This document shows, in pieces, positions 1 through 37,100 of a stretch of DNA of 40,496 bases. The stretch is taken from contig JAFLVN010000012.1 of assembly GCA_022508285.1 (NCBI GenBank), forward strand, positions 1 to 40,496, written 5' to 3'. The notes under the pieces were generated by a model that searched no databases, was not told the origin of the DNA, and saw only the letters and a program-made list of their open reading frames with translations. The number at the start of each line of letters is the position of its first letter. The first letter of the stretch is position 1. The DNA is from Clostridiales bacterium. Lineage in GTDB: Bacteria > Bacillota > Clostridia > Christensenellales > Borkfalkiaceae. The position numbers and the translations under genes are program-made.

Positions 1-1389
1 CGTGCCGGAATTGACGTTATTGATAACTATATAGACAGAGCTTTAACCGCTAAAACAGACAATCGTCCGCAGTTCCAAAAGATGATAAAGGACAGTTATG
101 AGCACGTCTTTGACTGCATTATTGTTTGGAAGTTAGACCGCTTTTCTCGTGATAGATATGACTCAGCTCACTATAAAAATCTACTCAAAAAGAACGGCGT
201 GAAAGTTGTTTCTGCAAAAGAAAGTATTTCAGAAGGCTCGGAAGGCATACTCCTCGAATCTTTGCTTGAAGGTATGGCTGAATACTACTCTGCCGAGCTT
301 GCGGAAAAGGTTGTGCGAGGTATGACCGAGAACGCCTTGAAAGGCATAAATAACGGCGGACAAATCACTTTTGGCTATCAAATGACCGCAGAACGGAAAT
401 TTGAGCCGCATGAAACCTACGCTCCTATCGTCCTTGAAATCTTTACTATGTATGCAGACGGAAAAACCGTAAAAGAAATAGTAGATTACCTTGATGAGAA
501 AAACATAAAAAGCTATCGTGGCGGTAAAATGAATATCAACGCTGTTCAACGTATTTTATCTAACCGCAGATACATAGGCGAGTACAAGTTCAGAGAGGTT
601 GTTGTGCCTGATTGTATTCCTCCTCTTGTTCCGAAAGAATTATTTGAGCGTGTTCAAAAGCTGTTGGTGAAGAATAAAAAAGCACCCGCACGGCGCAAGG
701 CAGAGGACGATTACTTACTTTCATTGAAACTCTTTTGCGGAAAATGTGGTACGCACATGGTTGGCGAAAGCGGAAAAGGCACTTCACGCATCTACCGCTA
801 TTATAAATGCGCAAATACAAAGCGAGTTCACATTTGCGATAAAAAGCCTGTCAGAAAGGAATGGATTGAAGACAAAGTTATTCAAGTAGTACTTGAAATA
901 CTCAACGATGAAAACCTTGTTTCCTATCTCGTGGACAGAACTTATGACCTGCAAGGCGAGGAAAATCCGCGCATACCTATACTGAAATCACAGCTTGCAG
1001 ATACTGAAAAGCGAATTGAGAATATAATGAACGCTATCGAGCAGGGCATCATAACTGACAGCACGAAAGACCGTTTGGCTCAACTTGAAAGCAAGAAGAA
1101 AGAATACGAAATCTCAATCTTACAAGAGAAAATAAAAAAGCCCTTTTTGACGAAAGAGCAAATCTTGTTTGGCATTGAAAAATACAAGAAGTTAGACTTG
1201 AACACTCTTGAAGGGAAACAACGGCTGATTGACGGCTTCGTGAACTCAATATACTTATATGACGACAAAATAACCTTTACTTTTAACTTCAAAGACGGAA
1301 CGCGAACAATCTTCCTTCCTGAAATTGAAGCAGCAAAAAATTCGGATATTAATTGCTTAGGTGCACCAGAAAATGAGCAAAAACAATAA
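1..1389 (+). CDS. Large serine recombinase (site-specific integrase), 5' end outside window
   Basis: The frame is open from base 1, so 462 residues are visible and the N-terminus with the catalytic serine is missing. The visible part starts inside the resolvase domain and contains LDRFSRDR (residues 45-52), the arginine-rich active-site segment of serine recombinases. A central recombinase domain follows, then a zinc-ribbon with cysteines at 246, 249, 270 and 279, and a charged coiled-coil-like stretch (about 325-375). This is the layout of large serine integrases of phages, ICEs and Tn4451-type elements, which integrate and excise DNA at att sites. The ATG at position 82 is internal, because the codons before it read as conserved resolvase sequence. 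The family call is firm. Whether the enzyme is active cannot be judged without the missing end. Confidence 0.93.
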   Translation, partial: RAGIDVIDNYIDRALTAKTDNRPQFQKMIKDSYEHVFDCIIVWKLDRFSRDRYDSAHYKNLLKKNGVKVVSAKESISEGSEGILLESLLEGMAEYYSAELAEKVVRGMTENALKGINNGGQITFGYQMTAERKFEPHETYAPIVLEIFTMYADGKTVKEIVDYLDEKNIKSYRGGKMNINAVQRILSNRRYIGEYKFREVVVPDCIPPLVPKELFERVQKLLVKNKKAPARRKAEDDYLLSLKLFCGKCGTHMVGESGKGTSRIYRYYKCANTKRVHICDKKPVRKEWIEDKVIQVVLEILNDENLVSYLVDRTYDLQGEENPRIPILKSQLADTEKRIENIMNAIEQGIITDSTKDRLAQLESKKKEYEISILQEKIKKPFLTKEQILFGIEKYKKLDLNTLEGKQRLIDGFVNSIYLYDDKITFTFNFKDGTRTIFLPEIEAAKNSDINCLGAPENEQKQ

Positions 1390-1506: not shown

Positions 1507-1535
1507 AGTCCCATGCAAATTAATTGCATGGGACT
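1507..1535 (-). terminator. Hairpin terminator of the kinase-like gene
   Basis: A perfect 12-bp stem (1507-1518 with 1524-1535) with the 5-base loop ATTAA lies 34 bases after the stop of the leftward gene ending at 1570. Read leftward it is followed by TTTACT, a short T run. It could also stop read-through from the recombinase side. Confidence 0.65.
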
Positions 1536-1569: not shown

Positions 1570-2262
1570 CTATTTAGAACTTTCTAAAAAACTAAAAATA
1601 TTAGATACAATTGTTTTAATAGTGTCATTATATTGCTGCGCTGTTGTGTCTATGATTGAATAATTTTCATCACCTTTAAGATATTTTTTAATTAAACACT
1701 TTAAAGCCTTATTATATTTACTAAGCACAATATTATTTACAATTTTACCTTCTTTCTCAATTAAGCCATTTGACTTTTCCCTTTCTATTGCCTCATTAAC
1801 TTCACATTTTACTATTAATAGATATTTAAATAAATTCTGCCATATATCAAGAGAGTAAAAATTCAACAAAGCTTTAAATTGATTTAAATCAATCATCTTT
1901 TCTTCAAAATAAATCAGCGCCCAGCATATTGCATCGTAAATTCCTCTTTCACATACTATTACTTCAATACCGCTATCAATACTCTCAAGTACATTTTTTA
2001 TGGTTTCGCATGCCGTCCAAAAATTGTATCTAGGCGAAAATTTATCTTTAATTGGGCAACCATTACCTGCTTCATAAAGTATCTTGTAATTATTTATATT
2101 AAAACGCCTTAATATTACTTCAAATTTATTTAATGATGTAGTTTTACCTGAATTAGGCGTACCCAATATTTCGATAATTACAGGCGCTTCCCTTCTTTGA
2201 TTAAATATATTCTTTATTTGATTTTCAGAAAAGAAATGTACAGGATATTCTACTCTATTCAT
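1570..2262 (-). CDS. P-loop NTPase, nucleotide/nucleoside-kinase-like
   Basis: This is a 230-residue soluble protein. A Walker A loop GTPNSGKT lies at 34-41. A Walker-B-like strand VIVCERGIYD at 101-110 places ERG and D110 where deoxynucleoside and thymidylate kinases carry their DR(Y/S) motif. A basic, charged stretch near 155-170 could be the lid. The gene is read from a GAGGG ribosome site seven bases before ATG, and this site overlaps the stop of the upstream membrane-protein gene, so the two are translationally coupled. AAA-type annotation is possible, but the small size and ERG motif favour a kinase fold. Substrate and pathway are unknown. The AT-rich composition matches the rest of the accessory region. 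Confidence 0.7.
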   Translation of the reverse strand: MNRVEYPVHFFSENQIKNIFNQRREAPVIIEILGTPNSGKTTSLNKFEVILRRFNINNYKILYEAGNGCPIKDKFSPRYNFWTACETIKNVLESIDSGIEVIVCERGIYDAICWALIYFEEKMIDLNQFKALLNFYSLDIWQNLFKYLLIVKCEVNEAIEREKSNGLIEKEGKIVNNIVLSKYNKALKCLIKKYLKGDENYSIIDTTAQQYNDTIKTIVSNIFSFLESSK

Positions 2263-2272
2263 ATTCTAACCC

Positions 2273-2929
2273 TCATACTGGTGTCCTAATAATGCTAATT
2301 AATTTATAATGTGCTAAATATGCATTACAAGTACTTTTATGCGCTTCTTCATTAAAATTATAACATTCAACCAAGTATTTATTTTTATTTGAATTATTCG
2401 TATGCTTTTTAACACTTTTTGAAGAAAAAACTTTGAAGTTCTGCGGACCGTTAAAAGCATCTGGGTCAGCCATAATACACCTCAATCCAACATCTTGTGA
2501 AAATTTGTATACTATTGCGCCAATCGCTTTTAGATTTGCAATTCTATTGTCAAATACTATCTTAGCCCCATTAGTAGCAGCATTATATTTTGATTCTGGA
2601 AATAAGACCTCAACCGTTTTATTGTTAAGGATTATTGCATGTAAGTCATCCAAGTAATCGTCAGTCCAGCTTAAATCTCCACCAAATAAAACCACCTTAT
2701 CCATTGCATTATGAATTATATTTAATCCTAATTTTATTACCTTTTTACGCTTTACAAAATGTCGATCATATACCGTAAAAAATATGCTTAGAAATAAAAG
2801 AATAATAATAACGCCTAGAGATATTATTTTAAATAAATTCGGTATATGTGGTATTAGTTGAAGAATTACGCCTAAAATAGAAATAATGCTAGCTATAATC
2901 ATAAAATAGTTACGTTTTAATTTTCTCAT
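2273..2929 (-). CDS. Two-TM membrane protein with PLD-like soluble domain
   Basis: This 218-residue protein has two N-terminal membrane helices (about 8-28 and 34-54) separated by a proline-containing turn and followed by a basic segment. That places the remaining 160 residues in the cytoplasm. The soluble part has an alternating strand/helix pattern with VVLFGGDLSW, VEVLFPES and a later LRCIMADPDAF strand, which resembles one repeat of the phospholipase-D-like fold. I see no HxKxxxxD catalytic motif, so it may bind rather than cut its ligand. AGGAG eight bases upstream supports the ATG. It is the first gene of a pair with the kinase-like gene 10 bases downstream. The function is unrecognised; the fold call is tentative. 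Confidence 0.6.
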   Translation of the reverse strand: MRKLKRNYFMIIASIISILGVILQLIPHIPNLFKIISLGVIIILLFLSIFFTVYDRHFVKRKKVIKLGLNIIHNAMDKVVLFGGDLSWTDDYLDDLHAIILNNKTVEVLFPESKYNAATNGAKIVFDNRIANLKAIGAIVYKFSQDVGLRCIMADPDAFNGPQNFKVFSSKSVKKHTNNSNKNKYLVECYNFNEEAHKSTCNAYLAHYKLISIIRTPV

Positions 2930-3026
2930 TTGTTGTGCTCCTTGCTTGTCCGATTGCAGGAATATCAGCTTGTTAGCTCTATTCCCAATTATTTGACGAA
3001 TTAAATAGAAGATATGTTACACTTAA

Positions 3027-3063
3027 ATGCAAAAGGTGCAGAAAAAATCTGCACCTTTTGCAT
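3027..3063 (-). terminator. Strong hairpin terminator at end of the degenerate operon
   Basis: A perfect 16-bp stem (3027-3042 with 3048-3063) encloses a 5-base A loop (T loop on the minus strand). It is flanked by T-rich sequence on both sides, so it could work in both directions. On the minus strand it lies 65 bases after the stop of the helicase remnant and before the two-TM gene. No plus-strand gene precedes it. The bases between it and the two-TM gene (2930-3026) show a ribosome site but no convincing promoter. Confidence 0.75.
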
Positions 3064-3127
3064 CTTTTTACTAAGACTACCCATTAACTTTCTAGATTTG
3101 TCCAAAGAATAATACCTCTATTTTTGT

Positions 3128-3370
3128 TTAATTAATATCAGCAGAATTAACCACAATGCCAACCTTATGTCTTGAGCGTGTTAATGCCACATAGCATTTA
3201 GACTTTGTTAATTCTGCCTTGATATACGTAAAGTCATTATTTAATATAGCATCTTTAATGTCATTCGTTGGATAAATTAGTACATTTTCATATGTCGATC
3301 CTTTTGACTCACCAAAAGTTATAATTTTAGTTTTATGATTTTCTATCTTACTGAATAGGGTTGCGTTTTT
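3128..3370 (-). pseudogene. C-terminal remnant of a UvrD/SF1-type DNA helicase
   Basis: Translating the minus strand from just after the stop at 3371-3373 gives about 80 residues with no start codon. They include IITFGESKGSTYENVLIYP and then CYVALTRSRHKVGIVV, ending at TAA 3128-3130. These match SF1 helicase motif V (the SKG...E.V pattern) and motif VI (YVALTRAR). The Walker A, Walker B and all upstream helicase motifs are absent, so this is the 3' stump of a helicase gene fused in position, but not by a start codon, to the preceding zinc-ribbon pseudogene. UvrD-like helicases of this type occur in repair and in several phage-defence loci; which one this came from cannot be told. Confidence 0.75.
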
Positions 3371-3902
3371 TTATTTAATTTTGGAACTATCCTTAATAAA
3401 TGCTTCAGCATTACAGCCACTGACTTGAAGATTATCAATATTGACTTTACCGCAGTCAAATATTTGAGTTGATTTGCCTTTAACTTTTCCGCCAAAAGTA
3501 AATTTACACCTAAATTCTGCGTTACAATGACCGCATACAAAACGATAGCCACCGCCGTCCTGCTTTATATATAAATCTTGCGGTTTACCACAAAAAACGC
3601 CGTCGGGCGTAACTTTCTGATAGTGTCGATATAGACCGCATTTAACCCTTTATTTTTGTATCCACCCGAAGAAATTTTTGAGTATTGCTATCGACAATTC
3701 CGTCATATTCGTGATAAAAACCACATTTAACGCATTGATATAACGATTTCTTTTTACCTGAAAAGTCAGCCGTCAAGCCTACACCACCTAAAAAAAACCC
3801 ACCAATAACCGCATTTTTAGCATTAAAGCCTTTTTTAGTTGTGTTAATCAGCTTCCAATTATCTTTTTCGTCACATATCGATCAATTATTAGGTGCGTTC
3901 AT
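3371..3902 (-). pseudogene. Broken multi-zinc-ribbon protein gene
   Basis: The start ATG at 3900-3902 lies one base after the stop of the upstream DUF2089-like gene, so the two formed an operon. Codon 7 is a TGA stop (3882-3884). The frame then reads KGFNAKNAVIGGFFLGGVGL, a glycine-rich hydrophobic stretch, and a CVKCG ribbon. It ends in a stop at about 3634, and the sequence continues in another frame with KCGLYRHYQ, CGKPQ and CGHC before TAA at 3371-3373. At least one nonsense mutation and one frameshift are therefore needed to explain it. The glycine-zipper plus zinc-ribbon layout recalls small bacterial zinc-ribbon proteins. Sequencing error could fake a single frameshift, but not easily both lesions. 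Confidence 0.7.
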
Positions 3903-3903
3903 T

Positions 3904-4665
3904 TTAGTCCTCTAAATTCATAAATTCGTTATTGACAGTAATAAAACTGCCGTTGCCTTGACTTCTATGGACAGTTGCAATACCAGCCCAAGCAAGTATG
4001 CCCGAAAAATAAGTAGAGCGCCTCATTGTCGAGCTACCAATCTTTGAGCCGTAAAATTCAGTAGAGATATAACCGTCAATAGTTGTAATAGGCAAATCTT
4101 CACTACCTATTTTTGCACCGTTTTGAGCGGCTACATCACCCCTATACATTTTACCACCGAGAGATATAGCCTTTTTAACTATTCCATCAAAGACTTCCCA
4201 CTCAAAAATAAAACCTTTCAACCCCTCGCTTTCAAAGCCTGCTTGCGATGAAGAAAGCCAAAAAGGAACAGGCTCGCCTTTCAAAACGGGCATAAGTGCT
4301 TTACCGCCACACTCAACGATTTTATTTTTTAGTCTTTTTACAACTTTGCTATCTTCGGAAGATTGCGTTAAATTTTCTAAACTGATATTGCTTGCCATTG
4401 TTTTACCCCCTAATTTCTCATTGATTGTATTTAATTTGTATTTAATGGAATTATAAGTTTCATTATAACGCGCTTGCATTTTCGATAAATTCCCTTCCAA
4501 AAGCAAAAACTGCTTAACAAAATCAAGCTCATCTGCACTTAATTCTGCAAATCCGCCTACATTAAACTCGCCGTTAATTTTAATGCCACAACACTTGCAA
4601 GACAATTCAGAAATGATTAGTTCATTTCCGCAAGAAGGACAATTTTTTAACAAATTAGTATTCAT
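3904..4665 (-). CDS. DUF2089-type zinc-ribbon/HTH protein with unknown C-terminal domain
   Basis: This 253-residue protein starts with a zinc ribbon (C9, C12, C23, C26) and a helical segment containing ELDFVKQFLLLEGNLSKMQ and a helix-turn-helix-like NETYNSIKYKLNTINEKLG, the pattern of DUF2089 proteins thought to bind DNA. The C-terminal 150 residues, with FEWEVFDGIVKKA and YFSGILAWAGIATV, match no family I can name; the end looks winged-helix-like. An ATG nine codons upstream is rejected: AAAGGAG lies eight bases before the ATG at 4665, and a good promoter (-10 at 4691-4696) overlaps the earlier ATG. It is the only intact gene of an operon whose two downstream members are decayed, so it may be a regulator that outlived its targets. 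Confidence 0.65.
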   Translation of the reverse strand: MNTNLLKNCPSCGNELIISELSCKCCGIKINGEFNVGGFAELSADELDFVKQFLLLEGNLSKMQARYNETYNSIKYKLNTINEKLGGKTMASNISLENLTQSSEDSKVVKRLKNKIVECGGKALMPVLKGEPVPFWLSSSQAGFESEGLKGFIFEWEVFDGIVKKAISLGGKMYRGDVAAQNGAKIGSEDLPITTIDGYISTEFYGSKIGSSTMRRSTYFSGILAWAGIATVHRSQGNGSFITVNNEFMNLED

Positions 4666-4690
4666 ATATTCGCTCCTTTGATTTTTTAAC

Positions 4691-4719
4691 ATAATACCAT
4701 TAAATTTTATGTATGTCGA
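4691..4719 (-). promoter_or_regulatory. Sigma-A promoter for the DUF2089-like gene
   Basis: On the minus strand there is TCGACA (4714-4719), a 17-base spacer and TATTAT (4691-4696). Transcription would start near 4684, about 20 bases before the ATG at 4665, leaving room for the AAAGGAG site. Confidence 0.7.
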
Positions 4720-12146: not shown

Positions 12147-14531
12147 CTATACTTTAAGCGTTTGGGTGGATTTTACTTTAAAAAAGTCTGCCCACGGGTC
12201 GGGCTTTTGCAGGCGGCGGAGGGCGGAACGGATATCAACCGAGTTGGGGGCGACTTTTGAAAGCTCCTCCCACGCTATTGGCATGGATACGGGCGCACCT
12301 TTTCGGGCACGAACGCTGTACGGCGCAACGCTCGTTGCCCCCGGACTATTGCGCTGCCAATCTATAAATATCTTGCCCTCCCGCACTTTTTTTGACATTG
12401 TGGAAGTGTAACGGTTCGGATAGGCCTCTTCCATTAATTGTGCTACTCTTTTTGAAAAGTCACGGAAGGCTTGACCCTCGATACCGCTTTTGAATGGCAC
12501 TACAACATGATAGCCCTTGCCGCCGCTCGTCTTTAAAAAGGATTTGAGCCCGAGTCCGTCGAGTACATACTTCAATTCACGCACTCCCCTCCTGACGTCG
12601 CCAAGCGAAAGTTCTTCGTCGGGGTCGAGGTCGAAAATCATTATATCGGGGCGATAAGGAGAATTTTTCTTACTGCCCCATACGTGAAACTCGACGGCGT
12701 TATATTGCACCGAATTAATTATGCCTTTATCGCTTGCGGCATAAAAATACTCAGCGTCCTCGGCGGGCGCATTTTTTATTCCGACAAAGTTTCCTTCAAG
12801 GTGGCGGCGGAAGAACTTTTCGCCGTCAATCCCCGCAGGGCAGCATACAAGGCTCAAAAATCTGTCTTTTATATACGGCAACATTCGCTCTGAGGCGGCG
12901 GCGTAATACTTCGCAAGCTCAGATTTTGTAACGGTAGGGTCGGAAAACATCGCTTTTTCTGGGTGAGTGATTTTAATTCCACAAACCTGCACGTCCTCTT
13001 TTTTTACCGACTGCGATTTTTTTACCGCTTTAGGACGTTCACTGTCAATCTCCTTAACTTCTTTATCGCTACGTATACCCTTAAAACTTGCCTGCCTTAA
13101 TAGCCCCGCAGAAGTGATTTCGGCAAAGTCTACCTGTGCGGCGAGGGCAGGTTTTACCCACACCGTATCCGCTTGAAACTCTTGGGGCACAGACGAAAAG
13201 GGCGGAGTTTTGCGCTTGAGCGCAGCAAGCCGCTTTTTAAGCTCACGGCGGGACTCATCGGTGAAGCCCGTACCAACGCGCCCTGCAAAGCTCAGCTTGC
13301 CGTCCTCATAAAAGCCGACGAGCAGCGACCTAAGCTCTCCGACTTCGGACAGCGTGTAGCCGCCGATTACAAACTCACGGGCGTTACGGAACTTCAGCTT
13401 TTGCCAGTCACCGTTTTTACCCGCAACGTACGCCGCATTTGCACGCTTGGCAACTATCCCCTCCATTCCACGGTTTTTAACCGCCTCGATATCCTTTTTA
13501 GTCATTCTCTCCGTATGCTCGCTGTACGACAGCACATAGGGAGCATTTTTAAGCAACGCCTTAAGTTTTTGCTTTCGTTCAATTAGCGGCAGCTCACGCA
13601 AGTCTTCGCCGTCAAGCGCAAGGAGGTCGAAAATAACGTAATTCAGCCCGCCTGTACTCTTGTTTTTTATATACGCCTGCAATGCGCCGAAGTCGGGTAT
13701 GCCGCCCTCTCCCGCAACTACCATTTCACCGTCTACCACCGCTGCACGACCGTTGAGCATTTTTGAAAGCGCCTCCGCTGCCACGGAAAACGAAGAAGTG
13801 CAGTTGTGGCCGTTGCGGGTATAGAGTGTAGTTTTGCCGCCCTCGCAAAAGCCGAGAGTGCGGTGACCATCGTATTTGAGCTCGTAAATCCAACCCTTGC
13901 CCGTTGGCAGAGTTTCGCAGAGCTTGGCAAGCATAACGTCCGTTTGCTTGAAGGGATTTGAGGCCGCAGATTTTGCTATTTCCGCCATGCTCTTGCCCGA
14001 GCGCACACCTCGGGTAAAGCGGCTGATTCCCGCTGTGTTTTTGGCGTAACCGTCACGCTCCTTGATAAGTAACCATGGCTCGCCGCCGTCGGAATTTTTT
14101 ATTTTTACAAGCGCCCAGTCGCCCTTTAAACGTTGGCCGTTTAAGTTGAACTTGAGCGAGCCCTCTTTAATACCCTTTTCGGGATCTACGTGGGGCGTCC
14201 ACTCGCCTTCGTCCCAGAGCATGACCGTACCGCCTCCGTATTCGCCCTTGGGAATCGTTCCCTCGAAATCCATGTAGTCAATCGGGTGGTCTTCCACACG
14301 CATGGCAAGCCGCTTATCCGCCGTGCAGAATGACGGGCCCTTGGGCACTGCCCAGCTTAAGGCAACGCCGCCCAGCTCGAGCCGTAAATCGTAGTGGTCA
14401 GCCCTTGCCAAGTGGTGCTGAACAGAGAATTTGAGTTTGCGGCGGTTTGAACGCCCTACCCTGCCCTCGGGCTCGCTTGTTATATCGAAATTGCGCTTTG
14501 AATTATACTTTTTGAGTTTACTTTCTGACAT
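12147..14531 (-). CDS. ligD: LigD-type DNA ligase: phosphoesterase-ligase-polymerase
   Basis: This is a three-domain end-joining enzyme of about 794 residues. Numbered from a TTG two codons upstream, the 3'-phosphoesterase domain (about 30-165) has H42, H48, D50 and VEDHPIDY with H84, the metal-site pattern known from Pseudomonas LigD. The ATP-dependent ligase domain has ELKYDGHR with nucleophile K221, VVDGEMV and GMEGIVAKR (motif IV-like), LKFR (motif V). The C-terminal primase-polymerase domain (about 520-785) has IFDLDPD with D636 and D638 and LKTSGGKGYHV. It repairs double-strand breaks with Ku, which is encoded divergently 77 bases away. The ATG at 14531 is preferred over the TTG at 14537. 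Neither has a clear ribosome site. Confidence 0.93.
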   Translation of the reverse strand: MSESKLKKYNSKRNFDITSEPEGRVGRSNRRKLKFSVQHHLARADHYDLRLELGGVALSWAVPKGPSFCTADKRLAMRVEDHPIDYMDFEGTIPKGEYGGGTVMLWDEGEWTPHVDPEKGIKEGSLKFNLNGQRLKGDWALVKIKNSDGGEPWLLIKERDGYAKNTAGISRFTRGVRSGKSMAEIAKSAASNPFKQTDVMLAKLCETLPTGKGWIYELKYDGHRTLGFCEGGKTTLYTRNGHNCTSSFSVAAEALSKMLNGRAAVVDGEMVVAGEGGIPDFGALQAYIKNKSTGGLNYVIFDLLALDGEDLRELPLIERKQKLKALLKNAPYVLSYSEHTERMTKKDIEAVKNRGMEGIVAKRANAAYVAGKNGDWQKLKFRNAREFVIGGYTLSEVGELRSLLVGFYEDGKLSFAGRVGTGFTDESRRELKKRLAALKRKTPPFSSVPQEFQADTVWVKPALAAQVDFAEITSAGLLRQASFKGIRSDKEVKEIDSERPKAVKKSQSVKKEDVQVCGIKITHPEKAMFSDPTVTKSELAKYYAAASERMLPYIKDRFLSLVCCPAGIDGEKFFRRHLEGNFVGIKNAPAEDAEYFYAASDKGIINSVQYNAVEFHVWGSKKNSPYRPDIMIFDLDPDEELSLGDVRRGVRELKYVLDGLGLKSFLKTSGGKGYHVVVPFKSGIEGQAFRDFSKRVAQLMEEAYPNRYTSTMSKKVREGKIFIDWQRNSPGATSVAPYSVRARKGAPVSMPIAWEELSKVAPNSVDIRSALRRLQKPDPWADFFKVKSTQTLKV

Positions 14532-14608
14532 AACCAAAGTATGTGAAAATATTAGTAATTTATCAATGGTAAAGGTATATTATAGGGGCAATCGGGAAAA
14601 CTCAATGT

Positions 14609-15427
14609 ATGGCAGTTATTCAGAAAGGTGCAATTTCCTTCGGATTGGTATATATTCCCGTGAGTCTCTACACGGCGACACAGGACAGCGACATAAGCTT
14701 TAATCAGCTTCACAAGGCGGATAAATCCCGTATACGCTATAAAAAAGTTTGCGCACACTGCGGCAAGGAAGTCGAGGCAAAGGACATTGTGCGGGGATTT
14801 CAGTACGCCAAGGACAAATACGTAGTAATAACGGACGAAGAAATTGAGAGTATTAAAACCGAAAAAGACCGCACTATTACCATTATGAGCTTTACCGCAC
14901 TTGACGAGATTAGCCCCGTTTATTACGACAAGGCTTACCACGTCGTGCCCCAAAAGGGCGGCGGCAAGGCGCTTGAGCTTTTGCGCCGAGCCATGATGGA
15001 GACTCAGCGTGCGGCGCTCGGCAGAACGGTTTTCGGCAACTCCGAAAAGCTGCTTGTGATAATTCCCCGAGAGGACGGAATGCTTATTCAGACCCTACTA
15101 TATCAGGACGACATAAAGGAAATTCCCGTAGCATACGAGCAGCCGAAAATTATGCAGGCTGAGCTCGATATGGCGGAAAAACTTATAAAGGGCATGGAAG
15201 AGCCGTTCACGCCCGAAAAATACAAGGACGAATTTCAGGAAAAGTTAAAGGCAATGATTGCCGATAAAATTGCGGGGAAAGCGGTCGATAAACCAAAAGA
15301 CGAAAAGCATGGCAAGATAATCGACCTTATGGAAGCCTTAAAGGCAAGCGTTAAAAACACAACGGAAAAAAAGCCCGCCACGCAAAAAGTTACACGCCCC
15401 CGTTCAAAGCCCCGCAAACAGGCTTAA
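14609..15427 (+). CDS. ku: Ku protein, non-homologous end joining
   Basis: This 272-residue bacterial Ku begins with AVIQKGAISFGLVYIPVSLYTAT, the family signature. It has a core with KKVCAHCGKEVEAKDIVRGF and YVVITDEEIESI, the ring-forming beta-barrel region EISPVYYDKAYHVVP, and a helical C-terminal part ending in a lysine/arginine-rich tail (about 245-272) that in other Ku proteins contacts DNA or LigD. As a homodimer it encircles broken DNA ends and recruits LigD. The 77 bases between it and ligD contain AT-rich sequence with TATAAT-like boxes on both strands, but none with a well-spaced -35. A bidirectional terminator follows. Confidence 0.96.
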   Translation: MAVIQKGAISFGLVYIPVSLYTATQDSDISFNQLHKADKSRIRYKKVCAHCGKEVEAKDIVRGFQYAKDKYVVITDEEIESIKTEKDRTITIMSFTALDEISPVYYDKAYHVVPQKGGGKALELLRRAMMETQRAALGRTVFGNSEKLLVIIPREDGMLIQTLLYQDDIKEIPVAYEQPKIMQAELDMAEKLIKGMEEPFTPEKYKDEFQEKLKAMIADKIAGKAVDKPKDEKHGKIIDLMEALKASVKNTTEKKPATQKVTRPRSKPRKQA

Positions 15428-25108: not shown

Positions 25109-28100
25109 TTATTCTTCGTCGGGGAGCGGTCCGTCATAGGGGTCGTTAAAGCCGTCGTCATCCCCGACTGCGCTTTCAACGACTGCAGGCGTCTTCCTTC
25201 TGGTGACTATCAGAAGTACGACGAGTCCTAACAGGACAAGTATTGCTCCCGCAATTGCTATAATTTCCCAGGTGGAGAGTGCGAACTTAACAGGCGCTTT
25301 ATAGCCGGTGATTTTTATATCTACCCTCTCCGAATTTGTGCCTACTAATTTGTAATTGACGTTGTCAATTGTAACGAGCAGAGTGTAATTTCCCGTCGTC
25401 ATATCGCTGTTGCCGACCAAACTTACTACTACGTAGATAACGTCGCCGTTTGCAAGGATTATCTTATGTGTAGAGGGCTGACCGGAAGCGAGACCTGCAA
25501 GGTTGAGCTCAAACTGTTCGTTGCCAATCTTTACGGTTGCTACGGGAACGTGCTTTTCTCCGTCGTACTTGAAGGATATTTTATCCCATTCAACCGTAAC
25601 TTCTCTGTGTACAATGTTTACCGCTACCATATCGCTGTGATTTGCAATTTCGTAGTTTGCATTGTCAATGGAAACGCGCAAATAATAGGTGCCAACGCCT
25701 GCAATATCACTGCTTCTGCTTACGAGCGATACCGTTATGCGGATAACGTCGCCGTTTGCAAGGGTTATAGTGTTGACGCCAAGCTGCAAGCCGGTTAACT
25801 CGTACTCTTCTCCGTCTACCAGCCCCGTAATCTTCGCTGCGGGAAGGTGAATTTGTCCGTCGTAGGTGAACTCATTATCCTTCCACTCGAAGGTTATAGG
25901 TCTGGGAGCTACTACGTACTTATCAAAGTTGGTATCCGAGTTAGGCTCGTTGGTATTGCTGTACTTGAACTCAAGGTAACCGTACTCTTCCATAGCCGCG
26001 GCACGTTCATTGAGCACGAGACGGATGCTGTATTTACCTATTATAGTGCCTCCGTTTACATAACCGTTGTCGCTTACGTCCTCGTATGCGTACGCATAAG
26101 CTATTTCCTTGAGCTCGTCAAGATATTGTACTGCGCCTTCTACCGATATATATCCACCGTCGATAAGCTCTCCGAGGATATCTATGGGATTACCGCTTGC
26201 ATCTACTAACGATTCGCCGTAGGTTGCGACATAGGGCTTGAGGAAGTTAACTATAATATATCTGTCCTTAGGCTGGATAAGAACCTTCCATACGCCGTAC
26301 TTGACCTCGTGGTTTTCCGCCTCTATGCGGTAGTAAATTACCCAGTTGCCTGCCTGCTTGATTTCAGGTGCAAACGTGCTTACCCCGCCGCCCAGTATTT
26401 GTGCAATCTGGCTTTCAGTCAAGTTGTCGTGTATTTTAGCGTCGTATCTCTCAAGGTTGGCGCCGTAGTAAATGATTGCCTTTTGTCCGCCCTTGAGCGT
26501 GATATATTGGTAATTGCCGTCATCGTCCGTTTTGTCAAGATTTACAAAGTAGTTCTGGTAACGGTCGATTACGCCGTCCTCATCGAACCAGGTGCTTTCG
26601 CTCTTGTTTACGGTTATATTAGCCTTACGAACCGTGTAAGTTGCCGCATGGCCGTTGTACTCGTCGTCGCCGTCCCAGCTGCCGCGGAATTCCACGTCGT
26701 AGTTTGTATTAGTCCAGTGTCCGATAATTGCATACTTGCCCGCATTTGCAAATTCATATTCATAAACTTCGCACGTGAACGAAATACCAAGCTCGTCGTT
26801 GCGTAATACGCTACCCTGAATAATGCTCCAGTCAAGTCTGCCCAAATCGCTCGTGGCTAATCCGTAAACGCTTGATGCGTCTTCGATGTAAACGGTTATA
26901 TTCCTTGCCTTGATAGTGAACGTTATGGTTTCAAGTCCTTCGAAGTCGTAACCGCTGAGGTCTATGCTATCGTCCACAGGCTGAAGGTTAGTGACCGCCT
27001 CGTGCTCGCCGGCGCCGATTTGTGCGCCTTCTACTATGAGGAATACCTGCTCACCCGCTATCCAGACGTACGCTTGAGGCGCTTGCTCAAGGCCGTTGTA
27101 GGTAAGCGTGGTGTTAGCCCAGTAAATCTTAACGGTGAGGTTACCCGTTACGCTGAAGCTGTAAACCGATTCAAGTCCGGTGTAGTTATCGGTACCCGCA
27201 AGAGTTACCTTTGCGTAGTAGGTGCCGAAAGGAGCATCATTTTTGATGTAGTCTTCCGTTACTTCACGCGTGCAGTTCTCGTCACTGTAGTACTTGATTA
27301 CGATATCGCCGTCGTCGCCGAACTTAGCCTTGGGAGAGGTTATCGACATTTCACCGCTACCTGCAGTTACAGAACCGCGGACTTCGAATTGCTCTACCCA
27401 CTCGTTGGTTGCCTGAACGATAATGAATTCAAGGTAGTACTGCATGCTGCCGGTATCCGCCCACGTATAGTTGACGTAATCCTTAAGAAGGAGAATTACT
27501 GTGTAAACGCCGGCGTTAATTCCGCCCTGATTGAAGATAACTTCGTACTGGTCGGTGTCAAAGACGTCCGCCTGGAGAAGTTCGCCCGTATACTCCTTGG
27601 ATAAAATTTCGGGAGCGGAGACAACGGCCTTTTCAACCACGTGCTTGCCGTCAATGAACGTTACGTTATAGTTGGCGGTATCACTGCATCTGCCGCTTAT
27701 TACGTAAGTGCCTACGGGTAAAGTTTTGTCTGCATTGTAGACGGGATAGATAGGTGCGCCGTCAACGAAGTGAGCGCTACCTTCCGCATACTCCCACCAG
27801 TCGGTGAGCACGACACCTTCGCCGTAAACCGTACTTACGTCTTTAACGATTATCGTTATTCCACGTCTTTCAATAGTGAATTCATATTCGGCGTTCGTGT
27901 AATCCAAAGGCACGTTGCCGCTTATAAGCGACGCCACTGCGTGATAGGTGTTCGGGTACACGGCTTTTCCTTCCTTAACCGTTACGTTAAGGGAAACTCT
28001 TTCGCCGTTGGGTGTATAGTAGTAAGCTTTGGGAACTTGCTCTTCGCCGTTGTATACGAACTGGGTGCTTTCCCAAACTATTACATAAGCCTCGGGCATA

Positions 28101-31100
28101 ATTTCAAAGAATACCGTAGCGCCGTCTTTAGGCAACTGGTAGTTGGAGTTGCTTATTGCGACTATGGTTGCAACGTAATTGATGCCCGGCTCCGTCTGTG
28201 CGCCGCTTACAGTAAGCTCTACTCTGTCGCCTGCAACAAGGTTGCCCGCCTCTGCATAGGGGAGATGCTCGTTGCCGTCAACGTTATATCTGAGCGTCTG
28301 AGAGTTCATTCTCTCATCGTTGTACCAAATAACCGTTATCGTGCGCTTGTTGACAGTTAACGTACCCGAAACGTAAGTTATCGAGTAGTTTTCGGAAATC
28401 AAGCCTTTGGGAGTTACGGTATAGTTACCTACGTTTCCGCCCTTGACATAGTTATATTCAAAGATGAGCGATCCGTCGAATACGTCTGCGTTGGGCTGGC
28501 CGTTTCCGTCCACATCGCAGGCCGCCAAGCCTTCGTATTTAACGCCTGCCGCAGCGGGTGCGTCGCCGTATATTATAGAGCTGTCGTTTGCCGTTACCGT
28601 CAAATCGGCTTTTCTGACCGTTATTGTGGTAATCATGTCGGCTATCGGTTCGTGGTTATCGTCGCCCTTGAAGGATACTGTTACGTCGTACGTGCCCGCA
28701 TTGACAACACCGCCGTCATACAACCAATTGTTGCGCATGTAAGTTACGGTTACCGTTACGCCTTCGGGTAAGCCGTTCACGGTAATTTGATGAACTTCGC
28801 CGTCATAGACAACGTACGTGCCCGAGAAAGTTACCTTGCTCATATCGTAATTGGCTTTGTTTACGGTTAAAGTACCGTAAGCGCCGTTGTCCGCACCGGA
28901 GGTTGCCCAGCTGCCTTCTATGAATATTACGTTGTAGTTGTCGTTGCCTGCAAAATGTCCCGTGATGGGATATTTGCCTGCCGCGGTTATTTCAGGTACG
29001 CTGAACGTAAGAGTATAGCTGTCGCCGCTGATAAACTGATTTTTATCGTCATCGTCGTAGAGGTAAGTCCAGCTAACTTTGCTCATATCGGGAGTTTCGC
29101 CGAACTTGATCTGCATATCGCCGATTACGATATATACGTTGCGGGGAAGTATTGTGAACTCAAACTTCAAGTTCTTGAACGTATCCGTTTCGTCAATATA
29201 CTCTGCCGTATACGTGCCTACGTTAACGGCTTGCTCAATTACGTTGCCTGCCTCGTCTTTTATTTCGAGGACAAGACCTGCCTCGCTTACCGACTTCCAG
29301 CCGTCGCCGTCGAAGTAGCGTGCGGAGGGAGCTTGAGCCGCTTTGTTGTAGTAGAGCGCATCATTGTCCCAAACGAGTTCAAACTCATGGTCCTGTGCGT
29401 CGTCATCGCTGTACTTAACGGTAAACTTAATAGTTACGTTTACGGGAAGAGCATAGTTGCCATTCGTTAAAGGCTGAACGGTTGCAACGTAGTTGTCGCC
29501 CGCGTCCTCGCGTTCAATCTTAACTACAAGCGTTAAGCTGTCGCCAACCTTCAAGCCCTCTGCTTTTGCAAAAGGAATGAACTGAGTGCCCTCTTCGTAC
29601 TCGTACTCGATTACCTGATCATCCGTGTACTCCGTGCCGCCCTCATGGTCATACCATTTTATGGTGATTTCACGGGGAGTTACGGTCAGAGTGCCGTATA
29701 CGTAAGTTATATTGTAGTTTTCGGCAGTTTCGTTGCCGTGAATTTCAATCGCGCCCTCGTACGTAGCAGCGTTGCCGTAGACGCCGTATTTAAAGGTTAC
29801 GTTTCCTATAACGTCCTGTTCGCTGTCTACTTCTGCAAGACCCGTTACGGTGTAACCGTAGCCGTCGGGATCTGCCTCTTCGCCGTAGATTACCGAACCG
29901 TCGTCAGCCGTTACGGTGAGTTCAGCCTTATTTATAACAAGCGTTGCCCACAGTGCGGATATGCCGCTGCCGTCGTAGTTGGGGTCAAATTCAAACTCGG
30001 CTTTTACCTGGTAGGTGCCGGCATTGATTGCACCGCCCACAACTTCAACTTTACCGCTTGCGTCGTAATAGGTATACGTAACGCCGGTTACGCCGATTGC
30101 CTTGCCCGAAACAAGCATAATCTGAACTTCGCCGTTATAGGTTACCGTTTTGGTTGTTCCGTTGAAGATTACGTCGCTTAAATCCGCCTTTGCCTTATGA
30201 ATTGTAAGGATTAAATCCTCTCCCTTCATGTCGGGAATAGGCTCGTAATTTACGGTATCCGAAATGGTGAATGAAATGGTTACGTTGTATATACCTGCAT
30301 CTCTTACGCCGTTAGCACCGTAAATCTTGCCGTCCTTTTCGTAGGTTACGGTTGCGGTTACGCCTTCGGGCAAGCCACTGATTGAAATCGTATGATACGT
30401 TCCGTCGTACGTTGCCGTAAGGTTGCCGATAATGAGACTATCTATAGCGTCTTTATAGCTTGCCTTTTTAACGGTGAGAGTACCGTTTATAAACGTTACA
30501 GTATAGTTGCCGTTTGAGCAAGAGCCGATAATCTCGTATTCACCTACAGTAGAACCCACGCTGTACGTAGGGCAGAGGAAAGATATGGGAGCGCCGTCCG
30601 CTTCAATGAAACGGTTGCTGCCTTGCTCATATTCCCAACCGAGGCTGCCGAGGCTTAACGTCTTACCGTATTCGACCTCCGCATTGCCTATCCTTACCGT
30701 AACTGCTATAGGAAGAATTTCGTACGCTTGCGACGAAGTAGCGCCTTTGTAAACTACCGTTGCGGTATACAATCCGACGTTCTTATACTCGCTTTGAGCT
30801 ACGCCGTTAACGTAAACTCTTACGTCGGGTATCTTCGTCCAGGTGCCGTCTTCTTCTACGTAGTATGCGTCAGGTTTGCGGTTTTCGCCGTTGTAGTAGA
30901 TAGGTGCGTTATCCCAAATTATGGAGCGTGCAGGAGCAGGCATAATGCTGAACTTCTGTATCGTAGTTCCGTCTTCGGGAAGCTTATAGTTGGGGTTGGT
31001 AAGCTCGGCAACCGTTGCCTGGAAGTTAAATCCGGGAAGATCGGTTGCGCCAAGTACTTCAAGCTCTAAGCTGTCGCCTTCAAAGAGGTTGCCCGCAACC

Positions 31101-34100
31101 GCATAAGGTGCGTGGAACTTTTCGTCGTACGCGTAAGTGAAAGTAGCCGAGCTGAGCGTTTCATCGTCGTACCAGGTTATCGTTATCGTACGGGGTGCAA
31201 CGGTGAGCGTACCTACTTTATAGAAAATTTCATAGTTTTCCGAGGTGAAGCCTGCGGGAATAATGTCGTACTCGCCTACTTTTCCGCCTAAGACGTAGCT
31301 GTACGTATACAAAAGCGCACCCATAAGGTCGTTAATTTCGTTGCCGTCCTCGTCCTTTGCAAATCCTGTGTAGGTTACGCCGTTTGCCGAAGGCTTGTCA
31401 CCGTAAACTATAGTATTGTTGTTAGCCTTTATGGTCAGCGCCGCTTTCTTGATAGTGAGCGTTGCCGAAATATCGTCTAAGTCGCCGTAATTAGCGTCAC
31501 CCTTGAATTTAACGGTTACGTCGTACGTGCCGGCGTTCTTCACGCCCTCTGCGCCGTAGCTGAATCCGTCCTTCACGTAGGTAATGCTTTCAATTTCTAC
31601 GCCTTCGGGTAATCCGATTACCGTTACCGTATGATTCTTGCCGTCGAAGGTAAATTCCGTACCTACTACGGTGACCTTGCTCATGTCGTAGCTTGCCTTG
31701 ATAACGGTAAGAATACCGAACTTCTTATTCTCTTCGGCCTTAGCGCTTGCCCAGTTACCTGTAAAGATTACTTCATAATTTTCGGCGTTGTCCGAAATGA
31801 ACTGTGCGCTTATGGGATAAGTGCCTACGCCGCCGATTTGTCCGCAGTTGAAGGTAATGGTGAAAGCCTCTCCGCTTACGAACTGCTTACTTGCGTCCTC
31901 GGGGTAGAGGTATTGCCAGTTCACTGCGTTCATATCGGGTGTTTCGCCGTACTCAACAGTCATATCACCGATTACGATATATACGGGGCGGGCAAGAACG
32001 TAGAATTCCTTGCTCATATCGCCGCTGAGTTCAACTTCAATGCCGGCGAGTGAAACGGTTGCCGTATACTTACCTACGTTTTTGGAATCGCCGATTACCG
32101 TTACGGTAAGCTCGAAGCGCTCTCCGCCTTCTTCAAGGAAGTAGTAAGCCTTGGGCTTTAAGTTGCTGCCGTCATAGTACAGCGGTGTGTTATCCCAGAT
32201 AATCGTGCCGGCCTTAGGTGCGGGAATTATATCGAAGATAACCTTCAGTCCTTCGGCAGGCAACATATAGTTAGCCGCGTATTCGCCTTCGATGCGGACT
32301 ATTTTCGCCTCGTAGCCGTAGCCTGCGTTAATCTGTCCGCCTTCAACTACCAGGACTACCGTTTCGCCGTTGGAAAGCACTGCAACAGCGTAGGGCTGCT
32401 GAATAGTACCCGCTTTGTAGGTGTAAACGAACTTGTCGCCTTCCAAGGGGTTGCCGTCCTTTGCATCGTACCACTTAACGTTGTCCTCGGTGAGCACGTA
32501 AGGAGTAACGGTCAATTTACCCGTTTTATAAGTTATGTCGTAATTGTCGGACTGGCTGTTACCGGTTATGGTAATTGTGTAAACGCCGACTTTGGTTATA
32601 TTTTCGTACGAGTATGTAAGATCGCCGAGTATGGTATCCAGATCGCCTGCGTCTTCGGATGCAAGACCTTCTGCGGTATAGCCGTAGCCGCTCTCTTCGG
32701 GAGTTTCGCCGTAAACGATAGTCGCGTCGTTTGCAGTTACCGTAAGGGCTGCACGCTTGATTTTGAGCTGTACGGGCTCAAGAGTCAATGCCACGTAGTT
32801 GTCGTTCTCAAGTACGATAATCGCCCTTACCCAATAGTCGCCGGCGTTCTTAACGCCGTTACCGCCTACGATATAAACGAAATCTTTGTCCGTTGCGTAT
32901 TCGTAAGTTACTTGCTTAACGCCCGTCAAATTGCCCGTTACCTGTACGGTGTGGGTTTTGCCGTCGTAGGTGAACTCGTAAACGCTCTCGGCAAATTTAA
33001 CGTCAAGCTCGGCTTTATTGATAGTGATTGTTACCGTGTATTCAGCCGTTATTTCTTCGTGGTTGCCGTCTACGGTGAAGTAAACCTTTAACAGATATTC
33101 ACCGGCATTAACCACTTGGCTTGCGTCTATTTCTTTGCCGCCGAAATAATATTTGTAAGTAACGCCCGTTACACCGTCAGGCAGGTCAACGTCTATTTCG
33201 AACGTATGAGCCTGACCGTTGTAATCGAATTCAACGTTTTTGTGGTCCTCGAAGAATGCATCGAGAACGCTAGTATCAACGGGTGCTTTTACTATTTCAA
33301 GTGCGCCGATTACGAAGGTTACTATATAGTTGCCGTCTTCGCAAACAGCGGTTATTACGTAAGTACCTACTGCGGAGCTGTTGTTCACGTTGCAGGTGAG
33401 CGTAATGTTTGAGAAGTCAATGTCGTATTCGCCCTCGTACTTTTCACGAAGTGCGTCTATTATGCTTTGAAGAGCGCCTGCAAGTTTACCGTCCACGTCG
33501 CCGTAGGTAAGACTTGCACCTTCGATTTCAAGCGTTACGGACTGAGGCAAGATTTCATAAGTATAATCGTCGCCCGCATTAATGCCGTGAGGCACGCTCT
33601 CGCTGGGAACGTACGCATGGTATGTTCCCGCTTTGCTATATTGCTCTTCCCTTACCTTAACGGTAAGCTCTTTCAGCTTCTGCTCTTCTTCGTCGAAGTA
33701 GTAAGCCTTGGGCGCCTGATTTTGTCCGTTATAAATTAAGGGTTGGTTATCCCAGATTACTACGCCCTTTTGAATGACGTTGAACTTAACGCTAGCGTAT
33801 TTCTCGTTTACGACGTAGTTGGAGTTACTTACGGAAACGATAGTTGCCGTGAAGTTAAGTCCCGCTTCCTTCGTTCCGCCGCTCACCACGAACGTTACCA
33901 CGTCATTGCCGAGCATACCGCTTGCAACGGGGAACGGTTCGTGAGTTAATCCGTCGTAATCATAATTGAGATTAGTGGACGAAGTCGTTGAGTCGCTGTA
34001 CCAGGTCACGGTAATTTCACGGGGTAATACCATTAAAGTACCGGGAACAAAGTTAATTTCGTAGTTATCCGACTGCAATCCGGCGGGGATAAGCTTGTAT

Positions 34101-37100
34101 TTGCCTACGTTGCCTGCGTAGCCGTCTTCAACGGTTATGGTAAGCATGCCGCCAAGCTGTCCGTTAAGCTTATCGCTGTCAGCCTCGTACTCTACGCCGT
34201 TTATGGTGTAGGTAACGCCGTCCGTAGCAACCGAGTCGCCGTAGGTTATCTCGCTGTCGTTAGCTTTTACGGTGAGAGCCGCCTTTTTAATGATGAGCGT
34301 TACTTCCATATTGGCTATGGGCTCAAAGTTCGGATTACCCGTAAAGGTAACTATTACTCTGTAGACGCCTGCGTTGATTACGCCGTCGCCGCCGAGACTC
34401 CAGCCTTCAAGCTGGTAGTCCATTGAAGCAACCGTAACGCCTTCGGGAAGACCCATAACGCCCAGTACGTGGATTTCGCCGTCATAAGTAACTTCAGTAC
34501 CGGTGAAGGTTACTTTGCTCATGTCGTACTCAACCGAGGTTACGGTAAGAGTACCGCACTTGCCGTTGTTTTCGGTATCGCCCGCTTTGTACCAGCTACC
34601 GGAGAATTCTACGATATAGTTATCCCCGTTGCTGCACGTAAACGTTGCGATTATAGGATAGGTTCCCTTATCTGTTATAGCGGGGCAGGAGAACGTGATT
34701 TTATAGTTTTCGCCTGCAACGAATTCCAGACTGCCTTCCGCATAGGTCCACTCAACGTCGCTCAAATCAGGAGTGCCGCCCGTGTAGCCCGTCGTAAAAT
34801 CGCCGATTACGATATAAACCGTTCTCTTTTCGATTCTGAACTCTTGCGTGTACGTAACTCCGTTAAGCACTGTCTTTGCGGTGTAATTGCCCGCATTTAC
34901 AGACTTTCTGTCAACGGTAACGGTAAGTTCCTTGGGAACGTTGTCCGTTTCGTTTTCAAAGTAGTAAGCCTTGGGCTTTTGTTCTTTTCCGTTATAATAC
35001 AGGGTAGTGTAGTCCCAGAAGACTACGCCCGCCTTAGGATTATAGGGCAGAATATCGAAGTTTACAGTCAAACCTGCGGTAGGCAACGTGTAGTTAGGAT
35101 TGTCAACATTAATTGCCTTAGCCTCGTAATTCATACCGACTTCAGACCTGCCGCCTTCAACGGTTACTTTAACGGTTTCGTTGTTAACCGCGTTGATAAC
35201 CTCTGCGTAAGGGAGGAACGTGTCGCCCGAATAGTTATAGGTTAAATCCTGTTTCTGCATACTTGCATCGTTCCACCACCTGATTTGAATTTCACGGGGT
35301 TTAACGATGAGGTCGCCCTTTTCGTACGTAACGGTATAGTTGGTTGTGCTGAGTCCGCTTACCTCTATTGCATTTTCGTAAATATCTGCGTCACCGTAAA
35401 TACTGTAGCCTACGAGTTTGAATGTAAGCGTTCCGAGCATAGCAGCCGTATCACCGCTTGCAAGTCCCTTGAAGGTTGCGGTGAAAGCTATAGCGTTGGG
35501 GTCGTCGCCGTAAATTATAGTTTTATCGTCAGCCTTGACCGTCAATTTAGCAGGCGTAATCGTCAGCTTTGCGGTCTTGGTCAAAACTTCGTCAGACGAG
35601 TAGTTGTCGGCTACCGTGAAGGTTACCCTTACCCAGTAGGAGCCCGCATCCTTAACGCCGTCAGTGCTTATGATATCGCTGAATCCTGCGTCGGTTGCGT
35701 ATTCGTATGTGTATGTAACGCCCTCAATGCCGACAGCACTGCCGGAAACGAGAATTCTGTGAACGTTGCCGTCGTATTCTTCTTCTTTATTTTCAAATAC
35801 TACGCCCGACAGGTCTACCTTCTGCTTGTTTACGGTAAGCTTTGCGGTCAGTTCGAACGTTTCAGCGCCGTTTATTAAAAGCCTGTAATTGTCTTTATCA
35901 GCCGCATTTTTGAAGGCAAACGTTGCCTTTACGGTGTACTCGCCAACCTCGGAAACGCCGTCCGCACCGTAAATTATGCCGTCTTTCTCGTAGGTTATCG
36001 TTACGGAAATCTGATCGTTGTCCCAAGTGCCGTTAAGCTCGTTTTTGAACTTATCGCCGGTGTAGTCTACCTGCTTGTTGTCAGACTCGAACGCAACGTC
36101 GGTAAGATTGACGTCGGCTTTGATAATTTCAAGTTCAACGTCTACGATATCGGCAATTGCATAGTAGTTGTCGTTGACGGTGAATTTAGCCGTAACCTTG
36201 TAGTTACCCACTTTGGTAACGCCGTTTGACGCAACTCCGTCATAGTAGAGAGTAACGGTTATGCCGTCGGGCATATTTGTGCAAGGTGCGCCGTTCATCG
36301 TGGCAGCCGACCAATCAACGGTAAGCTCGTGTGCGTTACCATTGTAAACGTTGCCCTTTGAAGACTCAAGCTTTACGCCCTCTATGGTTGCCTTGTCGAT
36401 AGTGAAAGATATAGTCTTTGTCTTACTACCCGAACCGTCAAGGTCATCCCACCAGATGTAATTTTCGTTGAGCGTAAGCGTTATAGTATAGTTGCCTGCG
36501 TTTATCGCTCCGTCTTCTCCGACAGGAGTGCCGTCTGCATATTTGATTTCAATCGTTGTGCCGTCTTTGAGCTGTCCCTGACCTATTTCAACGTCCGAGC
36601 CGGAAACATTATAATAAATCTTGGGCTTTTTAGCCGAGCCGTCGTAAACGAGGTCACTCGTGTCCACGTACACTATTGTGTTCGTCGTGAAAATCGTGAA
36701 CAGCTGATTCAAATCATCATAGTCAGCGCCTTCGATCGTGTAGTTATTGATAACGTCCGAGTCGCCGTTAAGTCCGGTAATTTTTGCGTTATATTCGCCG
36801 GGAGCCTTGGCGTCGACTTTTGAGCCATACTGAGTAATTTCGATAACCGGAGATATAGTTTTACCCTTATCTCTATCCACGAGGTTGGTTATCGTAGCGC
36901 TGGGTTTTTGTGCGCTGCCGTTCCACTCCAACTCCGTATCGCTCCACTGAATTTTTACAATACGTGCCGAAATTTCAACGTTTTGAATAACTATATCGCT
37001 CGACAATGCAAGCTCGTAGTTATCCGCATCTTCACCGCCGAGTACGAGCGAAGTGTAAGGGATAGTTACGTTATAAGTTCCCTTATCCACGCCGCCGAAC

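Follow-up and report, generated by a model that had tools for sequence, protein, structure and literature searches.

The window, meaning the whole stretch of 40,496 nucleotides analysed here, is the start of contig C4 (JAFLVN010000012.1) of a Clostridiales bacterium whose 1.47 Mb assembly comprises 97 contigs. Near its beginning, two genes on the reverse strand, located where a preliminary description of the sequence had placed them, encode a protein with two transmembrane (TM) helices and a P-loop kinase (Table 1). Relatives of both proteins stand in the same gene order, and thus neither reading frame is a product of chance (blastp E ≤ 8e-33 for relatives of the membrane protein, tblastn E ≤ 1e-34 for the kinases of loci L011–L014, both in small search sets). 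The gap between the genes is 10 nt, and a plausible ribosome site for the kinase gene overlaps the stop of the membrane gene, in keeping with the translational coupling proposed earlier. The reported AT-richness was likewise borne out: the GC content of the pair is 27.9% compared with 46.5% for the window, and none of 196 sliding 1360-base segments is equally low.

Table 1. Features of the gene pair and its immediate surroundings (window coordinates)
Feature	Position	Strand	Remarks
Two-TM protein with HKD-less PLD-fold domain, first gene of pair	2273..2929	-	218 aa, P0002
P-loop kinase gene, second of pair	1570..2262	-	230 aa, P0001
Motifs GTPNSGKT (P-loop, residue 34) and ERGIYD (residue 105); conserved R161-E162	kinase P0001		
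Junction: TGA stop of membrane gene inside TGAGGG, 10 nt ahead of kinase ATG; plausible ribosome site	2263..2275	-	
Perfect 12-bp hairpin 3' of kinase gene, possible weak terminator for pair	1507..1535	.	absent from terminator-scan calls
Perfect 16-bp hairpin upstream of pair, terminator-like on + strand	3027..3063	.	
Large serine recombinase, 5' end lost at contig start, neighbour of pair	1..1389	+	label from sequence reading

Two membrane helices are predicted in the first protein, at residues 2–25 and 31–54, and the computed fold of residues 58–218 is phospholipase D (PLD)-like, the best-ranked folds being those of the nucleases Nuc, NucT and SauUSI. The catalytic motif HxKx4D was found in 0/6 family members, which excludes the protein from the catalytic PLD enzymes and agrees with the earlier description of a PLD-like fold lacking the HKD residues. 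While the domain resembles the PLD superfamily (Nuc, NucT, Zucchini) in its predicted fold, the family differs in its own invariant motifs, FGGDLSWxxDY and RC, and in its N-terminal two-helix membrane anchor. TrmB and FAM83 DUF1669 are other members of the superfamily that are not known to carry HKD. Ligand sensing is suggested by the retention of invariant motifs in a catalytically dead domain. Identity as a CARF sensor was considered and rejected, as the match to PADLOC CARF_2M (E 0.037) spans the membrane stretch only and the predicted fold is that of PLD.

The motifs GTPNSGKT and ERG, as read earlier, are both present in the second protein, and the corresponding patterns G.P..GK[ST] and [DE]RG..D were computed in 26/26 aligned kinases (alignment A6). 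A profile built from five window-type (type-A) kinases matched Drosophila deoxynucleoside kinase (dNK) in the PDB with a whole-sequence E of 8.8e-5, and when the two are aligned the P-loop, the ERS/ERG motif and an arginine further downstream match in the same arrangement. These similarities support assignment of the protein as a probable P-loop kinase of the nucleotide/nucleoside-kinase type, (deoxy)nucleoside-kinase-like in character. The window-type kinase differs from the Drosophila enzyme in having a membrane partner gene, and the E-value of the match is about 1e-4 only. Pfam dNK matches 1/26 kinase relatives (E 1e-5, in a tally without cut-off), and no dNK match is listed for the window kinase. 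Zeta-toxin and NadR/AAA_28 kinase readings were tried and set aside, their matches having stayed weak.

The pair recurs in several distantly related bacteria with a patchy distribution. Searching genome contigs with a four-row kinase alignment returned 26 loci, namely four with the layout of the window (L011–L014), 20 kinase-Nudix fusions, one in which kinase and Nudix are separate neighbours (L032) and one without a called kinase open reading frame (ORF; L034); in viral contigs the same alignment returned two loci, near copies as judged by their flanking ORFs. When an alignment of the membrane protein was searched against 291 genomes of the class, two carriers were found, the window's own genome and G1017, where the membrane gene is followed by the kinase gene with a 4-nt overlap (L040). 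The membrane protein occurred in 1/58 genomes of the family of G1017 (G1017 only), in 2/373 genomes of its order (G1017 and a genome that coordinates and score identify as that of L013, both known already) and, among the 21 kinase-bearing genomes, in the 4 already known. Thus, the recurrent pairing in unrelated genomes that the preliminary description had proposed to look for, as opposed to homologues that never stand together, was seen in 6/6 known members, with no unpaired copy. Five of the six had entered via the kinase or the window, and the independent support for pairing consequently amounts to one new pair, L040, the only new member retrieved by a search independent of the kinase. The six 2-TM-type kinases form one clade (100/99). 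The kinase of G214, a relative from the same genus, falls in the other, 4-TM branch of the tree, so the window copy was not simply inherited with the genus. Narrower queries returned little: with the window proteins alone, plasmids, phages and viral contigs yielded no relative; nor did viral contigs yield one with the membrane alignment, or plasmids and phages with a single fusion query. The window membrane protein as a single query found itself only in 301 genomes, and in 299 genomes of the phylum a first kinase alignment recovered nothing beyond the copy of the window itself.

The 4-TM branch consists of sister operons (L016–L024, L026–L031 and L033), in which a membrane gene lies directly upstream of a kinase-Nudix fusion with a homologous kinase domain. 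They resemble the window pair in this kinase domain and gene order; they differ in the C-terminal Nudix domain, for which the window kinase is too short, and in a membrane protein with no detectable relation to the 2-TM family (hhalign probability 0.2%). The 4-TM-type gene is present directly upstream in 16/20 fusion loci and absent from L015, L025, L035 and L036. Of the 403 ORFs in all 28 loci, a nine-member profile matched these 16 and no others (E ≤ 1.2e-7). Ten of the matches come from the training set or are near copies; the remaining six are L016, L017, L018, L027, L028 and L033. A hydropathy scan assigned 2 to 4 segments to the 4-TM-type proteins. The Nudix-type motif GGH...RE..EE occurs in 20/20 fusions and in L032. 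Of eight scanned fusion or Nudix proteins, two passed the Pfam NUDIX cut-off of 21.1 bits (L020, 26.3; L032, 27.5), five fell below it, and L016 had no match among those listed. Beyond such weak AAA_28/NUDIX-type matches, no named family was found in the scanned sister-operon proteins. Identical proteins link L019, L022 and L031 to genomes G506, G543 and G214, respectively, and L021 and L023 are near copies of each other. That one kinase family is paired with two membrane families lacking any detectable relation points to the kinase as the input and to the membrane part as the output.

The sister operon family spans Bacillota, Bacteroidota and Pseudomonadota, and fusions without the 4-TM gene occur in other phyla. 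In a Dehalococcoidia locus (L032:7914-9691) the fusion is naturally split into three adjacent genes, encoding the kinase, the Nudix protein and a third, small protein that contains two hydrophobic segments. At L015:6431-9948, the 4-TM gene is replaced by an apparent arrangement of the kinase-Nudix gene between two HD-type proteins, the upstream one putatively dGTPase-like.

Proximity to known defence genes, suggested earlier as a point to check, was clear for the sister operons but not for the 2-TM operons. Eight neighbour proteins of our choice beside three sister operons were scanned for defence families. QatC (3.4e-50) and PDC-S02 (1.9e-141) lie directly upstream of the operon in G543 and G506, respectively, while in G214 AbiH (2e-18) and AbiU (5.9e-36) are separated from the 4-TM gene by three and four genes, and a further neighbour matches homing endonucleases (4e-11). 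Two of the eight had no match. The protein beside QatC in G543 lacks a PADLOC or Pfam match but has a relative in L035. Elsewhere in the branch, a TIR-like protein, slightly below cut-off, lies ahead of L020, an integrase lies near L026 and a phage terminase near L033. These two related proteins (22% identity, E 7e-19), at L022:4634-5410 in Christensenellaceae and L035:10268-11080 in Phycisphaerae (Planctomycetota), both lie near a kinase-Nudix gene; they appear QatB-like, and a composite with Qat is possible.

The expectation that no described system has these parts was upheld: the pair matches no described family in PADLOC, Pfam, NCBIfam or PHROGs. PADLOC-DB 2.0 gave no significant model match, RT_UG18 (0.004) and CARF_2M (0.037) both being weak. 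No paper on such a pair was found in an open library among the titles and abstract starts listed; a mention in a 2015 nucleotide-centric survey is possible. The nearest described plan is Panoptes (OptS-OptE), in which a constitutive nucleotide synthase keeps a 2-TM effector in check (PMC12657218); the synthase is also found there with 2TM-CARF and 2TM-SAVED proteins, and mCpol systems are given as rare yet widely distributed (PMC12657218). The likeness lies in the two-gene composition: one gene encodes a nucleotide enzyme, the other a two-TM protein whose soluble domain senses nucleotides. The window pair differs in its dNK-like kinase and HKD-less PLD fold. It is not a Panoptes system, that is, an mCpol synthase with an S-2TMbeta, 2TM-CARF or 2TM-SAVED effector, because the motifs identify the enzyme as a P-loop kinase and the sensor has a PLD fold. 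On the model of Panoptes, it is proposed that a nucleotide level set by the kinase is read by the PLD-like domain.

The pair is real and recurrent, is absent from the libraries searched and represents a variant on a known plan, with defence as a plausible role. It is tentatively read as a sensor-effector unit of two genes that most likely serves in defence by abortive infection, an interpretation held at somewhat below even confidence. In this scheme, for which we infer ligand sensing and its sign, membrane damage and phage defence, the membrane protein would be held in the inner membrane by its two-helix hairpin, and its catalytically dead PLD-fold domain would most likely bind a small phosphorylated ligand rather than cut one. 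The (deoxy)nucleoside/nucleotide-kinase-like enzyme would make or consume this ligand. As long as the cell is resting, the ligand level set by the kinase would keep the membrane protein quiet; infection would shift the nucleotide pool or block the kinase, upon which the membrane protein may oligomerise and perturb the membrane.

Several observations weigh against this reading. The deoxynucleoside-kinase match is modest, with no single stretch below 0.001, and a 26-row kinase profile ranks the SRP receptor first (3.5e-5), with deoxynucleoside kinase at 1.2e-4. AAA_28, which is tied to NadR kinases, matches 18/26 kinase relatives at E up to 0.01, the per-protein scores examined being below cut-off. 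Most genes beside the 2-TM operons cannot be recognised as defence genes: L012 has a PEP-utilising enzyme, L013 two proteins without Pfam match, and L014 a HATPase protein in which an HSDR_N stretch stays below threshold. Among these loci the window's recombinase and the HATPase gene of L014 alone are suggestive. A PADLOC tally returned 91 families for 130 neighbour proteins compared with 27 families for 126 control proteins, the identities resting on the best 25 of each; one PDC-S02 gene accounts for many of the 91, and the control matches listed include defence types (dGTPase, a type I specificity subunit and reverse transcriptases). The neighbour set covered 24 loci with ≤6 proteins each, L034 and L037 having been dropped for want of a kinase ORF and L023 and L038 omitted as near copies. 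The control set was 126 of 161 proteins from 19 genomes, chosen by us at ≤7 per region and excluding the genomes of L019, L022, L031 and L036. Given the partial listing, the inflating gene and the defence-type control matches, the tally is suggestive at most. Consequently, defence is deduced mostly from the sister branch, where the clear defence neighbours are found.

Among the alternatives, the kinase may itself be the effector, kept close to the membrane by its partner, altering the (deoxy)nucleotide pool on infection or stress and so starving phage replication, while the PLD-like domain does no more than scaffold or regulate it. The similarity of the kinase profile to deoxynucleoside kinases, the L015 fusion, flanked by HD-type genes of which the upstream one is apparently a dGTPase, and a dGTPase match of 1.2e-55 in the neighbour tally, although the control has one too, are consistent with this model, which nevertheless appears unlikely: partnership with two membrane families that a profile comparison does not connect suggests a membrane output rather than a mere tether. 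Deoxynucleoside-kinase-like motifs would also suit a metabolic unit for nucleoside salvage or uptake, where the kinase traps the nucleoside and the membrane protein regulates. Such a unit is improbable in view of the great rarity of the pair (2/291 genomes, including the window's own, and 2/373), its AT-rich composition beside a recombinase, the lack, in the 2-TM type, of any transporter-like protein with many helices and the defence genes near sister operons. A toxin-antitoxin system, with a zeta-like kinase phosphorylating a metabolite and a membrane protein that neutralises or positions it, would fit the coupled two-gene layout, the P-loop kinase and the weak match of one relative's kinase domain to Zeta_toxin (E 0.18); we consider it quite improbable, since that match is under cut-off, the kinase motifs align to dNK and the kinase is partnered by a membrane protein of PLD fold. 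Finally, a membrane-anchored nuclease or phosphohydrolase acting through other residues and regulated by the kinase would accord with the top folds Nuc, NucT and SauUSI and is very unlikely with HxKx4D missing from all six family members.

As regards the surroundings of the pair, the claim of flanking terminators stood in part. Perfect hairpins are present on both sides, but the terminator scan called two sites, 1369-1405 and 3027-3063, both on the + strand, so that terminators on the pair's own strand are plausible at best. The serine recombinase and decayed helicase described earlier adjoin the pair as reported, the former by its apparent identity. Upstream, positions 3000-3900 hold a decayed gene, probably a UvrD-like helicase C-terminal fragment with other pieces, broken by stops and frame changes. 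The next gene (3904-4692) is present in 2/30 other genomes of the genus; this synteny check found no empty site, and the L045 site is not syntenic by ORF reading. Farther along the window, a LigD-like gene beside a divergent Ku-like gene (12147-15427) resembles a bacterial NHEJ (non-homologous end joining) pair, and positions 25109-40495 encode a giant repetitive protein, open at the window end and thus at least 5128 aa long, with a putative C-terminal membrane anchor.

Returning to the proposed sensor-effector unit, both operon branches might belong to an undescribed immune family, a joint claim that we regard as doubtful. The kinase would write a small, non-cyclic phosphorylated nucleotide signal, the membrane protein would read it (through the dead PLD domain in one branch and the 4-TM-type protein in the other), and the fused Nudix domain would erase it in the larger branch. 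If true, nucleotide-enzyme-to-membrane-effector signalling in bacterial immunity would reach beyond cyclases and polymerases to salvage-type kinases, and the degenerate PLD domain would be a sensor type. The operon branches with and without the fused Nudix domain would then allow direct tests of the writer, reader and eraser roles.
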